From positions 888,501 through 952,500 of the forward strand of contig NC_011420.2 in the NCBI RefSeq assembly GCF_000016185.1: 64,000 nt of DNA, given 5' to 3'. Shown here piece after piece: positions 4,210 to 16,038 of this stretch (within the stretch, counting starts at the first letter, position 1; the number at the start of each line of letters is the position of its first letter). Origin of the DNA: Rhodospirillum centenum SW (GTDB lineage: Bacteria > Pseudomonadota > Alphaproteobacteria > Azospirillales > Azospirillaceae). A program made the translations under genes and the position numbers. The notes beneath the pieces were generated by a model. That model was not told where the DNA came from and did not search any database. It saw only the letters and a program-made list of their open reading frames with translations.

Positions 4210-4307
4210 CGGCGGGCTTCCGGAGCGGGTCGGGGAACGCCCCGGGCCCGTGGCTGTTCCGGGGCGGAGGGCGAACCGTGCCCACGTAACCAGCGGAGCG
4301 GTCGATC

Positions 4308-11891: not shown

Positions 11892-13439
11892 TCAGAAGAG
11901 CGTGGGCAGGGTCAACCGCAGCGGGGCGGGCGCGCCTTCGGCATGCCATTCCGCCTCCAGCGCGCCGTCCGGCTGCCCGGTCAGGGAAAGCCAGTTGCGG
12001 GCCGGCAGCAGCCGGCGCCCGGTTTCGGCGAAGCCGGGGAACTCCAGCGTCAGCCCGTCGGCCAGGGGCTCGCGCCGGCCGGCCAGCCGCTCCAGCATGT
12101 CCACCGCGAAGCCGGCCGGCGGCGGATGCACGATGCCCGAACTGATGAGCTGCCAGATCTCCAGGTCCAGCCCGCGCAGGACCCCGACGCCGCCCAGATG
12201 CACCTCGCCCGACACCACCGTCACGCGGCAGCGCGTCTCCCGCACGAACCCGGCCAGAAGCCGGAGCAGGCGGATCCATTCCTCGCGGTGGGCGGGGCTG
12301 CGCCACTGGTCGCGCAGGTCGTCCTCCAGCCGCTGCCGCCCGGGGATCAGGTTCAGGATGCGCTCGGCCAGCCCCAGGCCGGGGAACAGCACCGGCACGC
12401 CCGACATCAGCAGCAGGTGGCGGGCGCCCCGGTAGCGGTCCAGCCAGCCGGGCAGCGCCTCCCAGGTCGTCTCCGACATCACCCGGTCCGGCCGTCGCTC
12501 GCTGCGCAGGTCCAGCGCCAGCACCCCGACCCCGTTCAGGGTCAGACCCTGGCTCAGCACGCCGGTGCCGGGATCGGCCAGCAGGGTTTCCGGCGGGTCG
12601 TCCGCCATGCCGAGCTGGAACAGCCGGAACGCCTTGCGTGCCGCGGCGAAGACGGCGCGGTAGGGGTCCGAGTCCAATACCGCGTCGGGATGGGAACCCC
12701 AACCGTCCAGGATGTCGTGATCGTCCCACATGCACAGCGCCGGGACCGACGCCAGCACGGCCGCCGTCTCCGGCTGCGACCAGCCATGCCGGTAGACCTC
12801 CAGATACCAGCGGTCCAGCCGTGCGGGCAGGTCGGGCGGCAGCGGGGTGGAACCGCGGCGGGCGGCGGTGGCAGCGGTCAGCCCCTCCACGCCCTGCCAC
12901 AGCCCGTCGGCATAGACCTGGTCGCCGCCCAGCAGCAGAAGGTGGAACGGCTCCGCCCGGTGACGGCCCAGCAGATGGCCCCAGCGGGCGTTGCGCGACA
13001 GGCCGGCGGCGGCGATCGCCGCCTCGTCCTCGCAGCCGCCGCAGGAGGCGAAGGCGATCCGGGGCGGGACCAGCGTGCCGGGCAGGGCGAAGTGCCAGCG
13101 CCGGTCGTCACCGTCCAGCCCGTACCCGGCGCGACCGTCCTGGACGCCCCGCGGCACGGCGAAATCGTAGCGCCAGAGCCGCTCGACCACGCCGCCGTCC
13201 AGGCTCCACTCGGCCAGGAATCGTGGCGGCACGGGCAGCGAGACGCCCTCCACCCGGAGGTCGGCCGGTTCCGCGTCGCCGCGGAACAGCATGCAGCAGG
13301 ACACGCGCCAGCGGCCGCCCTGCGTGCCGCGCGCCAGCAGGACGGGACCGAGTCTCAGCTCGGGCCTGGGCGGACGGCGCGGCTTCGACCGGGCGGGCCG
13401 GGCACCGTCCGGTCGGGGAACGGGGGGGCAGGGGATCAT
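11892..13439 (-). CDS. PhoD-like metallophosphatase
   Basis: This is a 515-residue protein of the alkaline phosphatase D-like group. Metal-binding motifs are visible in order: FASCGG (~130-135), LLLGGDQVYAD (~168-178), MWDDHDILDGWG (about 60 residues later) and VVSGEVHLGG in the C-terminal third. No clear signal peptide is present, so a cytoplasmic enzyme is likely; the substrate (phosphodiester or phosphomonoester) is unknown. The start at MIPCPP is the first Met that excludes sequence shared with the next gene. An alternative is a later internal start, since the first ~25 residues are Pro/Arg-rich and poorly conserved in type. Confidence 0.85.
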   Translation of the reverse strand: MIPCPPVPRPDGARPARSKPRRPPRPELRLGPVLLARGTQGGRWRVSCCMLFRGDAEPADLRVEGVSLPVPPRFLAEWSLDGGVVERLWRYDFAVPRGVQDGRAGYGLDGDDRRWHFALPGTLVPPRIAFASCGGCEDEAAIAAAGLSRNARWGHLLGRHRAEPFHLLLLGGDQVYADGLWQGVEGLTAATAARRGSTPLPPDLPARLDRWYLEVYRHGWSQPETAAVLASVPALCMWDDHDILDGWGSHPDAVLDSDPYRAVFAAARKAFRLFQLGMADDPPETLLADPGTGVLSQGLTLNGVGVLALDLRSERRPDRVMSETTWEALPGWLDRYRGARHLLLMSGVPVLFPGLGLAERILNLIPGRQRLEDDLRDQWRSPAHREEWIRLLRLLAGFVRETRCRVTVVSGEVHLGGVGVLRGLDLEIWQLISSGIVHPPPAGFAVDMLERLAGRREPLADGLTLEFPGFAETGRRLLPARNWLSLTGQPDGALEAEWHAEGAPAPLRLTLPTLF

Positions 13440-13542: not shown

Positions 13543-13782
13543 TCACCCGTGCGCGGGACCACGACCACGCAGCAGCGCCAGCATGTTCGCCGGCACGGGC
13601 TCGTCCAGCACCGGATCGTACAGGCGGTGCAGTTCGTCCGCCTGCTGGCGATAGCGGTCCAGCAGACCGCGGGCGGTCGGATCATGTTCGATCGCCGCCT
13701 CGATCTCGCGCCGTTCATCCTCGCTGAGCGCGCCGTCGAGGTAGGCGTTGATGTCGGTCATGGTCAGTTTCTTCATCAACAT
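13543..13782 (-). CDS. Short soluble anti-sigma-like protein
   Basis: This is a 79-residue protein. Residues ~8-50 (MTDINAYLDGALSEDERREI) resemble the N-terminal sigma-binding part of alphaproteobacterial anti-sigma factors. It continues with LHRLYDPVLDEPVPANMLALL, a segment that also resembles the core of NepR. It stops there, without the transmembrane helix and periplasmic domain of ordinary family members (~250 residues). ATG 13782 is preceded by GAGGGTGG. An EcfG-type promoter match lies upstream at 13854-13878, and an ECF sigma gene lies 1.1 kb away. Either a natural minimal regulator or a truncated gene; nothing after the stop encodes a membrane segment. Confidence 0.72.
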   Translation of the reverse strand: MLMKKLTMTDINAYLDGALSEDERREIEAAIEHDPTARGLLDRYRQQADELHRLYDPVLDEPVPANMLALLRGRGPAHG

Positions 13783-13853
13783 CGTCCGGACCACCCTCTG
13801 CCGCTCTCCCGACGGATCAAGGCAGAAAATGTCGCCGCAGCGGCCAGACAGTC

Positions 13854-13878
13854 AACATCGGGATCAGGACCTTGTTCC
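13854..13878 (-). promoter_or_regulatory. EcfG-type promoter for the anti-sigma-like gene
   Basis: Read on the minus strand, this is GGAAC-N16-TGTT, against the general-stress consensus GGAAC-N16/17-CGTT (one -10 mismatch). It lies ~70 bases upstream of the start codon at 13782. Its -35 element forms the left half of the palindrome GTTCC-C-GGAAC (13874-13884) shared with the divergent promoter. Confidence 0.6.
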
Positions 13879-13879
13879 C

Positions 13880-13904
13880 GGAACGGGGCGCTCCCGGCCC
13901 TGTT
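13880..13904 (+). promoter_or_regulatory. EcfG-type promoter for the SDR gene
   Basis: GGAAC at 13880-13884, then 16 bases, then TGTT at 13901-13904, matches the general-stress consensus with one -10 mismatch. It lies 31 bases upstream of the SDR start codon. It is back-to-back with the minus-strand promoter, their -35 elements separated by one base. Confidence 0.6.
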
Positions 13905-13935: not shown

Positions 13936-14811
13936 ATGCCCCCCGACCAGCAACGGGAAATGCCGCACGGTCAGCCGGCACAGCACCAGGAAAGGCAACC
14001 GGGGCGCGAGCACCGGATGACGCCCCGCCCGGTCTTCATCCGGGAGGAGTATCGCGGCAGCGGCAAGCTCACAGGCAAGGTCGCGCTCGTGACCGGCGGC
14101 GACAGCGGCATCGGCCGCGCCGTCGCCGTCCATTTCGCCCGCGAGGGGGCGGATGTCGCCATCGCCCATCTGGAGGAGGATCAGGACGCCGGGGAGACGA
14201 AGCGGCTGGTGGAGGCGGAAGGCAGGGAGTGCCTGACCTTCCGTGGCGATCTCGGAAACGAGAACACCTGCCGCGACCTCGCCGGGCAGGTCATGGACCG
14301 TTTCGGCCGGCTGGACGTGCTGGTCAACAACGCGGCCGAACAGCATGTCTGCGAAAGCCTGGCGGACATCTCCGCCGAACAGCTCGAACGCACCTTCCGC
14401 ACCAACATCTTCGCCCAGTTCTATCTGACGAAGGCGTGCCTGCCGCACCTGCGCAAGGGGGCCGCGGTCATCTGCACCACCTCCGTCACCGCCTATCGCG
14501 GCAATCCCAAGTTGCTGGACTATTCCGCGACCAAGGGCGCCATCGTCACCTTCGTGCGCTCGCTGGCGGCCCAGCTCGCGCCCGAAGGCATCCGCGTCAA
14601 CGGCGTCGCGCCGGGGCCGATCTGGACCCCGCTGATCCCGGCCACCTTCCCGGAGGAGAAGGTGGAGCAGTTCGGCGGCGATGAACCCCTGGGCCGGCCC
14701 GGGCAGCCGGCGGACGTGGCGCCGTCCTACGTCTTCCTGGCCTCGGCCGACAGCGCCTACATCAGCGGCCAGGTGCTGCATCCCAACGGGGGCGAGCCGG
14801 TGGAGAGCTGA
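13936..14811 (+). CDS. SDR-family oxidoreductase (general-stress type)
   Basis: This 291-residue protein belongs to the classical short-chain dehydrogenase group that includes Bacillus YdaD/YhdF-like stress proteins. It has the cofactor loop TGGDSGIG (53-60), NNAA (131-134) and the catalytic Ser (~183), Y196 and K200 in YSATK. The N-terminal ~45 residues (Gln/Pro/His-rich, then a PRPVFIREEYRGSGKLTGKVA segment) are typical of that subgroup. GGAGAGGA precedes the ATG. An EcfG-type promoter lies upstream and a perfect 13-bp terminator hairpin downstream. Substrate unknown. Confidence 0.92.
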   Translation: MPPDQQREMPHGQPAQHQERQPGREHRMTPRPVFIREEYRGSGKLTGKVALVTGGDSGIGRAVAVHFAREGADVAIAHLEEDQDAGETKRLVEAEGRECLTFRGDLGNENTCRDLAGQVMDRFGRLDVLVNNAAEQHVCESLADISAEQLERTFRTNIFAQFYLTKACLPHLRKGAAVICTTSVTAYRGNPKLLDYSATKGAIVTFVRSLAAQLAPEGIRVNGVAPGPIWTPLIPATFPEEKVEQFGGDEPLGRPGQPADVAPSYVFLASADSAYISGQVLHPNGGEPVES

Positions 14812-14867: not shown

Positions 14868-15341
14868 TCAGGCCGCCATCATGGTGTTCAGCCGTTCGCG
14901 CGCCCGGCACAGGCGGGAGCGGATGGTGCCGATGGAGACGTTCAGCTTCTCCGCCGCCTCCTGATAGGGCCGGCCCTCGATGGCGACCAGCTTCACCACC
15001 TTGCGCTGGCACGGGGTCAGGGTCCGGAAGGCGCGGTCCACGTCGCGGCAGACCAGCCGCGAGAGCTGCGTCGCCTCCACCGAGGCGGCATGGTCCCACA
15101 GCTCCACCTTCGTCATGTGCTTTTCGCGCTGAAGATTGTTGAAGTGCAGGTTCTTGAGCATCGTCGTCAGCCAGGCCTGCATGTTCGTTCCGGGCTCGAA
15201 CCGGTGTGACCGGGAGAGCGCCCGGGCGATGCAGTCCTGCGTCAGATCCTCCGCGGCATTGGCATCGCGCGTCAGCTTGCAGGCGTATCGATGCAGGGCC
15301 GGAATGCAGCTCACCAGCTCATCGGTGAAGGAGTATGCCAT
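14868..15341 (-). CDS. ECF-family RNA polymerase sigma factor (EcfG/RpoE-like)
   Basis: This is a 157-residue sigma factor. Region 2 (~6-75) has ANAAEDLTQDCIARAL and FEPGTNMQAWLTTMLKN. Region 4 (~101-152) has LTPCQRKVVKLVAIEGRPYQEAAEKL and the recognition helix IGTIRSRLCRARERL. Length and motifs fit the alphaproteobacterial EcfG/RpoE-like groups. ATG 15341 follows GGAG; upstream sequence in the same frame is low-complexity Arg/Pro. A perfect EcfG-type promoter (15695-15719) points at it across a ~350-base leader, suggesting autoregulation. No PhyR gene lies in the window, and the short anti-sigma-like gene at 13543 is the nearest candidate regulator. Confidence 0.9.
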   Translation of the reverse strand: MAYSFTDELVSCIPALHRYACKLTRDANAAEDLTQDCIARALSRSHRFEPGTNMQAWLTTMLKNLHFNNLQREKHMTKVELWDHAASVEATQLSRLVCRDVDRAFRTLTPCQRKVVKLVAIEGRPYQEAAEKLNVSIGTIRSRLCRARERLNTMMAA

Positions 15342-16038
15342 CGTTTGGCTCCGTCTTTTCGATCGTCGTGGTGGCGTCGCGGTCGAAGATCCGTTGCGCG
15401 TCCGGCACGGACCGCCGGTGGTCGCGGCTTCCCGGTCGCGGCCGCGCCTGCGGCCGTCGTCGGGAGGTGTCGCAATTTCCGGTGGTGTCGCCCGGGGGTG
15501 TCGGGCGTCAGGAAACCTCGCGGCCCGGACGGTCATGCCGTCGCGCTGCCGCCGGGGCGGTATGTGACAAGAAGGAAATCACAGGGGCTCTTCCGGCCTT
15601 GGGTGACATTGTTGCCTCCCGGTCACTTCGGTCCGCGCAGACGGAACCTCGCAGGTCTCAGAAGTGCTACGGCGCTTGGCGTCGTCGGCAGGGTAACGGG
15701 AGGCGGTCGGCGATGTTCCGTTCCCGTTACAAGAATCGGCGTCAGTGTCTTGAAATTCCGTAAGTTCCTTAGTTAATCCTCCGGAAGGCGAGCGGGGCGC
15801 CGGACTCCCCCGGGCGAACGGTCGGGGTTTATCGGAAGGAGCGGCAGGGCGGCGCTCCCAGGACCCGAATTCTGTTGCCAACGGACCGGGACCGGTGCGC
15901 AATGGGGTATCGGTGGCCTGCTGGCTGTTCGGTCAATGGAGCTTTAACCATATCGTCGCCAAGCATAGTTCTGCTGCTCCGCGCACCATGATGTCGCGGC
16001 CGGTGGTACAGACTGCTGACAAGGAAGAGTCGACGCCC
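15342..16038. other. Long intergenic region between ECF sigma and glgP genes
   Basis: These ~700 bases separate divergent genes. The sigma-side half (15342-15695) would be a long untranslated leader if the EcfG-type promoter at 15695-15719 is used. I found no NepR-like or other convincing small gene on either strand. The right part carries the glgP promoter, which I could not locate precisely. Confidence 0.5.
15695..15719 (-). promoter_or_regulatory. Perfect EcfG-type promoter upstream of ECF sigma gene
   Basis: On the minus strand the sequence reads GGAAC-N16-CGTT, an exact match to the general-stress promoter consensus of alphaproteobacteria. It is oriented toward the ECF sigma gene, 354 bases before its start codon. 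Autoregulation is inferred. Confidence 0.65.

Follow-up and report, generated by a model that had tools for sequence, protein, structure and literature searches.

The window analysed here, a 64,000-nucleotide stretch of the Rhodospirillum centenum SW genome, holds two matches to a stress-type promoter motif that stand back to back between an anti-sigma-like gene and an SDR gene. The locus raises the question of whether these matches are promoters, which sigma factor would read them, and whether their junction makes the site a toggle, as the initial annotation supposed.

Promoter pair

On the minus strand, positions 13878-13854 read GGAAC-AAGGTCCTGATCCCGA-TGTT, and on the plus strand, positions 13880-13904 read GGAAC-GGGGCGCTCCCGGCCC-TGTT, each with a spacer of N16 and with a single base between the -35 elements of the two, which are named P_AS and P_SDR (Table 1). 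This direct reading agrees with the initial annotation, which had described identical spacing and identical -10 elements on both strands around one palindrome, and which had the promoters facing an anti-sigma-like gene and an SDR gene, an arrangement borne out by the positions of the ORFs and by conservation in relatives. P_AS ends at a distance of 72 bases from the small anti-sigma ORF (first ATG), and 31 bases lie between P_SDR and the SDR ATG; transcription would be expected to start near 13847 and 13911, respectively. What is new here is that predicted promoters of a known kind, those of stress sigma factors, abut at their -35 elements.

Our preferred reading, which we hold at a probability of about 0.8, is that these are back-to-back promoters for an ECF sigma factor of the alphaproteobacterial general-stress type, and that they would co-induce the anti-sigma gene (as feedback) and the SDR gene together with the sigma gene itself. 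The locus is probably a general-stress-response locus.

Table 1. Features of the locus and of the related phyR region. Positions are those of the window unless a locus or contig is named.
Feature	Position	Strand	Basis
Palindrome GTTCCCGGAAC, GTTCC-C-GGAAC, holding both -35 elements	13874-13884	.	sequence; same junction in 5/31 scored genomes
P_AS, predicted promoter GGAAC-N16-TGTT, toward anti-sigma gene	13854-13878	-	-35 13874-13878, -10 13854-13857; exact in 56/58 genomes
P_SDR, predicted promoter GGAAC-N16-TGTT, toward SDR gene	13880-13904	+	-35 13880-13884, -10 13901-13904; tracks SDR gene
Small anti-sigma gene, 79 codons from ATG 13782 (ATG 13776 also possible)	13543-13782	-	zf-HC2 above cut-off
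SDR family oxidoreductase gene	13936-14811	+	adh_short_C2 1.7e-57; NCBIfam NF005214 above cut-off
ECF sigma factor gene, 157 codons, ATG 15341 chosen by homology	14868-15341	-	Sigma70_r2, r4 domains
P_sigma, predicted promoter GGAAC-N16-CGTT, 5' of sigma gene	15695-15719	-	equivalent in 29/29 evaluable named loci
Predicted small RNA region	L138 1230-1247; promoter G000:C1:3570045-3570069	minus, divergent from phyR	

Conservation in relatives

The sample comprised 82 genomes of the order, and the upstream region was scanned in all 58 scored as having the anti-sigma gene (57 at E 1e-12 or better, plus G015, whose copy lies in the same setting with its first part missing). An exact GGAAC-N16/17-NGTT points toward the anti-sigma gene in 56 of these; G045 has a 15-base spacer, and the sequence of G031 stops after the -10 at a contig end. 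G031, with 243 bases of upstream sequence, was not evaluable for the SDR gene. Among the 57 evaluable genomes, P_SDR and the SDR gene are both present in 30, both absent in 24 and discordant in three, counts that carry no tree correction and are not independent because most of the genomes come from one genus. Within the concordant 30, two calls depend on short scored SDR alignments, of 33 residues in G033 and 63 in G045. The discordant genomes are G018, with an SDR gene and no exact P_SDR, and G011 and G053, with P_SDR and no SDR gene at the cut-off used; G053 retains a C-terminal piece of the SDR.

The -10 CTGTTGT is kept in 14 of the 24 SDR-less genomes, in which the -35 is no longer GGAAC: it reads GGATG, GGACG or GGAAG in ten and is shifted or lost in four. 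A kept -10 beside a degraded -35 looks like decay of the promoter after loss of the SDR gene. The five genomes whose -35 elements are separated by one base agree in the promoter elements and differ in spacers and leaders. On this conservation in relatives P_AS and P_SDR are judged to be real, and we regard them with high confidence as genuine ECF-type stress promoters.

The -10 at the SDR gene is TGTT in all 32 matches, and at the anti-sigma gene it is TGTT in 53 and CGTT in four of 57 matches. The first -10 base appears to be both gene-specific and conserved, with CGTT at the sigma gene, TGTT at the SDR gene and mostly TGTT at the anti-sigma gene.

Sigma factor

The usual order in relatives is the anti-sigma gene, the divergent SDR gene and then the ECF sigma gene on the minus strand; where the SDR gene is missing, the next gene upstream of the anti-sigma gene is often that of the sigma. 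A large conserved gene 3' of the anti-sigma gene (~11892-13439, minus strand), here called phoD-like as a name only, is kept adjacent in many relatives. Of the 37 named loci, 29 had 400 or more upstream bases and could be evaluated for a promoter of the sigma gene; GGAAC-N16/17-CGTT was found in all 29. The CGTT form recurs in 26 of 26 further matches, from a set in which many loci end before the promoter position. P_sigma lies far upstream, its -35 starting 296-409 bases before the sigma start in the 29 named loci.

In the proposed mechanism, stress, probably acting via PhyR, would free the ECF sigma factor encoded at 14868-15341, and holoenzyme carrying the freed sigma, presumably this one, would bind either half of the palindrome and transcribe the anti-sigma gene leftward or the SDR gene rightward. 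The sigma gene would also be induced, from its own P_sigma, and the anti-sigma product would then limit the response as negative feedback.

Both P_AS and P_SDR have the GGAAC -35, the spacing of 16-17 bases and the xGTT -10 of EcfG-type promoters, and anti-sigma and sigma genes are among the apparent targets here as they are for EcfG-dependent promoters. The EcfG motif is given as GGAAC-N16-CGTT in R. etli in the excerpted text of PMC3892343 and as GGAAC-N17-20-GTT in S. melonis in that of PMC6599016. The window pair differs from EcfG-dependent promoters in that its -10 elements are TGTT, not CGTT, in that the promoters abut at the -35 through the palindrome, and in that its dependence on the sigma factor is a prediction.

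The window sigma was not filed as EcfG (ECF15), since the branch that unites sigmas encoded next to canonical NepR excludes it in two trees, with moderate support (93/95 with 18 rows and 92/96 with 49 rows) and long branches. Its closest solved relative, on the other hand, is of the EcfG type: 5uxx_A (1.4e-22), from an entry with a NepR chain as well.

The same promoters could be real and yet be read mainly by another ECF sigma, such as that encoded at G000:C1:1689414-1689854, which is 46% identical to the window sigma. The window sigma is present in 55 of the 82 genomes at 77-100% identity and follows the anti-sigma/PhyR pattern except in G069, G072 and G076, whose sigmas are up to 45% identical to it. 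These three (L045, L063 and L057, respectively) keep the anti-sigma gene, P_AS and PhyR with no close relative of the window sigma, so that another sigma may use P_AS there, and they do have a relative of the G000:C1:1689414-1689854 sigma. We consider this alternative unlikely for the window, however, as relatives with the window sigma encode it at this locus too, and the sigma gene is itself preceded by a promoter of the same form.

A further motif, GGAAC-N17-CGTT, lies 5' of a small membrane-protein ORF, presumably DUF1328-like, in locus L005 (~330-355 plus; G000:C1:1688528-1688553), close to a second ECF sigma and its membrane anti-sigma.

Spacing of the -35 elements

Both promoters were scored in 31 genomes, and the gap between their -35 elements is 15 bases in 23, one base in five, 14 bases in two and three bases in one. 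The five with a one-base gap (the window genome, G054, G055, G066 and G067) belong to four genera; in the set of named loci, those of Aerophototrophica crusticola, Oleisolibacter albus and one Rhodospirillaceae MAG have the one-base gap. With one base in five genomes against 15 in 23, the palindrome appears as a lineage-specific junction of promoters that are separate elsewhere.

Footprints were calculated by assuming that polymerase covers -40 to +20 or -55 to +20 and that transcription starts 7 bases after the -10. Under the first assumption the footprints overlap by 17 bases at the one-base gap and by 3 bases at the 15-base gap, and under the second by 47 and 33 bases, respectively. By this arithmetic, with its assumed values, competition between polymerases is most plausible in the one-base lineage, and some interference may occur at the 15-base gap too. 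With a single base separating the -35 elements, two polymerases could probably not occupy the site at once, and exclusive binding in the one-base lineage would give each initiation to either the anti-sigma or the SDR gene.

A comparison is offered by the divergent E. coli promoters of Warman et al. (PMC12825309), which in the excerpted text also serve divergent genes from one stretch of DNA, where a bound polymerase may exclude the other. The E. coli promoters are described there as sharing a -10, with starts 10-23 bases apart, whereas P_AS and P_SDR have separate -10 elements, expected starts ~64 bases apart and their symmetry at the -35; the window pair thus lies outside the bidirectional class as that text defines it.

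As an alternative, the palindrome might be a switch or partitioning device, in which a polymerase facing one way excludes the other and the anti-sigma and SDR outputs are anticorrelated from cell to cell. The closeness of the -35 elements, the overlap of the assumed footprints (17 or 47 bases) and the retention of the junction in five genomes of four genera speak for this explanation, and competition in the E. coli promoters appears when transcription in one direction rises, according to the same excerpts (PMC12825309). It is nevertheless quite improbable, because 26 of the 31 scored genomes have other gaps, because the E. coli promoters that share a -10 are there said to compete at high activity only, basal activity being too low (PMC12825309), and because mutual repression is not apparent and the anti-sigma would lower both outputs.

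The toggle of the initial annotation is not supported: the one-base junction is found in only five of the 31 scored pairs, and the toggle as a general function was rejected because the -35 gap varies among relatives. The sequence of the locus holds no sign of mutual repression between the two outputs. P_AS and P_SDR do not differ in -35 or -10, and a single sigma should therefore activate both; the minus-strand product is a predicted anti-sigma that would lower both outputs, which suggests negative feedback rather than mutual repression. The promoter pair looks like a point of co-induction, not a toggle.

Motif statistics

Because the genome is about 70% G+C, short motif matches come cheaply, and the loose motif is weakly enriched in the window: GGAACN{15,19}GTT has 8 matches, where shuffles average 3.71 and 6 in 100 attain that count, for which reason enrichment of the single motif was set aside as too weak a proof by itself. 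The stricter GGAACN{16,17}NGTT has 6 matches against 1.41 in shuffles, with one shuffle in 100 reaching 6. The genome-wide scan proposed with the initial annotation gave 44 matches to GGAACN{16,17}TGTT against 8 for the reversed pattern, and 67 to the CGTT form against 36, the reversed pattern being an imperfect control in both cases.

The pair is far rarer than the single motif. Palindromes of the form GTTCC-N-GGAAC number 14 genome-wide (8 for the reversed control, ~4 expected from composition), and the one in the window alone has a correctly spaced GTT on both sides; among the other 13, GTT stands at the right distance on one side in a single case and on both sides in no case. Given 14 palindromes, 0.0035 with GTT on both sides would be expected, odds that were computed after the fact, and six simulated first-order genomes contained no divergent pair at gaps of 0-20.

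It is hardly credible that a G+C-rich palindrome produced both matches by chance, since, common and weakly enriched as single matches are in the window, the pair has an expectation of 0.0035, is conserved in relatives and is associated with the SDR gene. The initial annotation had called paired matches unlikely by chance, and conservation in relatives settles the question in its favour.

Elsewhere in the window, at 4234-4260, two motif matches on opposite strands overlap face to face. This look-alike pair was dropped as support, being a probable by-product of the partial self-complementarity of the motif: GGAAC...GTT followed by CC tends to produce such pairs.

Anti-sigma protein

The window anti-sigma matches Pfam zf-HC2 at 26.8 bits (cut-off 22.2) and Pfam NepR at 21.3 bits, below the cut-off of 25.7. 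When the window genome was searched for NepR no match reached E 0.001, the anti-sigma gene being best at E 0.0013; among the 82 genomes, 38 have a NepR match above the cut-off, including relatives of the anti-sigma and seven genomes with canonical NepR. Searched against PDB, the profile of the anti-sigma family finds solved NepR first (3t0y_B, 3.3e-5; 2lfw_B, 0.003), followed by weak matches to 5uxx_B (0.15) and 4qic_B (0.21). With hhalign, the anti-sigma aligned to 12 NepRs over 28 columns (E 1.4e-10) and, over 64 columns, to the domain of a membrane anti-sigma that the window genome also encodes (E 1.9e-15).

The structure model (mean pLDDT 80) has four helices, at residues 8-15, 21-33, 35-59 and 65-73. 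Foldseek with this model gave no match at E <=0.001; class I anti-sigma domains fill the first five ranks among the fold matches, the best having E 0.75 and none being significant. A three-helix bundle with a fourth helix and a profile match, which define a class I anti-sigma, are found in the window protein, and its modelled N-terminal helices set it apart from a short NepR without a folded N-terminal domain. Residues L51 and Y55 are invariant in 17 of 17 rows and, with the same spacing, may be equivalent to L32 and Y36, which are functional in S. melonis NepR according to the excerpted text of PMC6599016.

The protein resembles NepR in its C-terminal segment, which aligns, in its co-occurrence with PhyR and in the position of its gene near an ECF sigma gene, and differs from it in adding an N-terminal helical domain like that of class I. 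It was not filed as a NepR, given that extra domain and the window copy's score under the Pfam cut-off. With the class I anti-sigmas (RslA, RsiW, MucA, RskA, ChrR) it shares the modelled four-helix layout, zf-HC2 and the best, non-significant, fold matches; unlike them, the window protein has no cysteine, and nothing membrane-like or sensor-like follows the domain. Overall, the anti-sigma looks like a class I-like domain with a NepR-like C-terminal segment, and it may shed light on the relation of NepR to the ordinary class I domains.

One relative, the G015 copy (L079, ~1432-1581 plus), is without the N-terminal domain and resembles a short NepR. Run against 289 genomes of the class, the anti-sigma profile had matches in 51, most of them within larger ORFs and a few of them short, so the small form may not be confined to the family.

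PhyR and a predicted small RNA

The window genome has a phyR gene. Window-type PhyR (best E 1e-60 or better) and the anti-sigma are both present in 58 of the 82 genomes and both absent in 24; in the seven genomes of genus g11, a canonical NepR next to a divergent PhyR takes their place.

As a tentative extension of the preferred reading, one that we would sooner doubt than assert, Azospirillaceae and their kin may run their stress response with an ECF sigma outside the EcfG branch and a class I/NepR-like anti-sigma released by PhyR. The anti-sigma protein would then bridge membrane anti-sigmas and NepR, and in the window lineage the -35 palindrome would split initiations by polymerase orientation between feedback and protection. 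The locus points to a likely core stress locus of a family that is largely plant- and soil-associated, and GGAAC-N16/17-TGTT is a concrete motif for finding its regulon. The natural one-base and 15-base layouts are material on whether -35 symmetry makes polymerases compete. Among the titles and abstract openings of the literature matches listed, none concerns the locus, nor PhyR in either Azospirillum or Rhodospirillum centenum, and the family's PhyR pathway is described in none of the papers listed or read, PMC4681086, PMC8999054, PMC7406223, PMC12826043 and PMC10934627 among them.

On the strand opposite phyR, a conserved core, CCTCCCTGAACCGCCA, was found in 20 of 30 phyR loci and not in the other 10. 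In all 20 core-bearing loci GGAAC-N16/17-TGTT ends 20-21 bases before the core. The stretch is predicted to be a GsrN-like small RNA, of which similar criteria have led to predictions near phyR in other alphaproteobacteria, according to the excerpted text of PMC5869019. It resembles GsrN, as described there, in promoter type, position, an exposed C-rich 5' loop and a G+C-rich hairpin, and differs in having no detected Rfam family and in the same-strand protein gene of Azospirillum-type loci. A search of six phyR loci against Rfam gave two matches, both under the gathering scores. When folded, three core-bearing stretches each give a 5' stem whose C-rich loop is exposed, together with a G+C-rich hairpin; their z-scores against shuffles are -1.7 (own genome, where 13 of 200 shuffles do as well), -2.2 and -3.3. 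For Azospirillum-type loci (L152, L155, L156, L159 and L161), where that conserved protein gene is encoded in the same orientation ~120-230 bases beyond the -10, the core may instead be the leader of this gene. Whether RNA or leader, the phyR-side motif is a second conserved use of the predicted TGTT promoter motif beside a stress-response gene. The predicted small RNA with its conserved C-rich core is also present in L139-L142, L152-L156 and L158-L167, and a T-run follows it in most of the loci shown, that of the own genome being poor.
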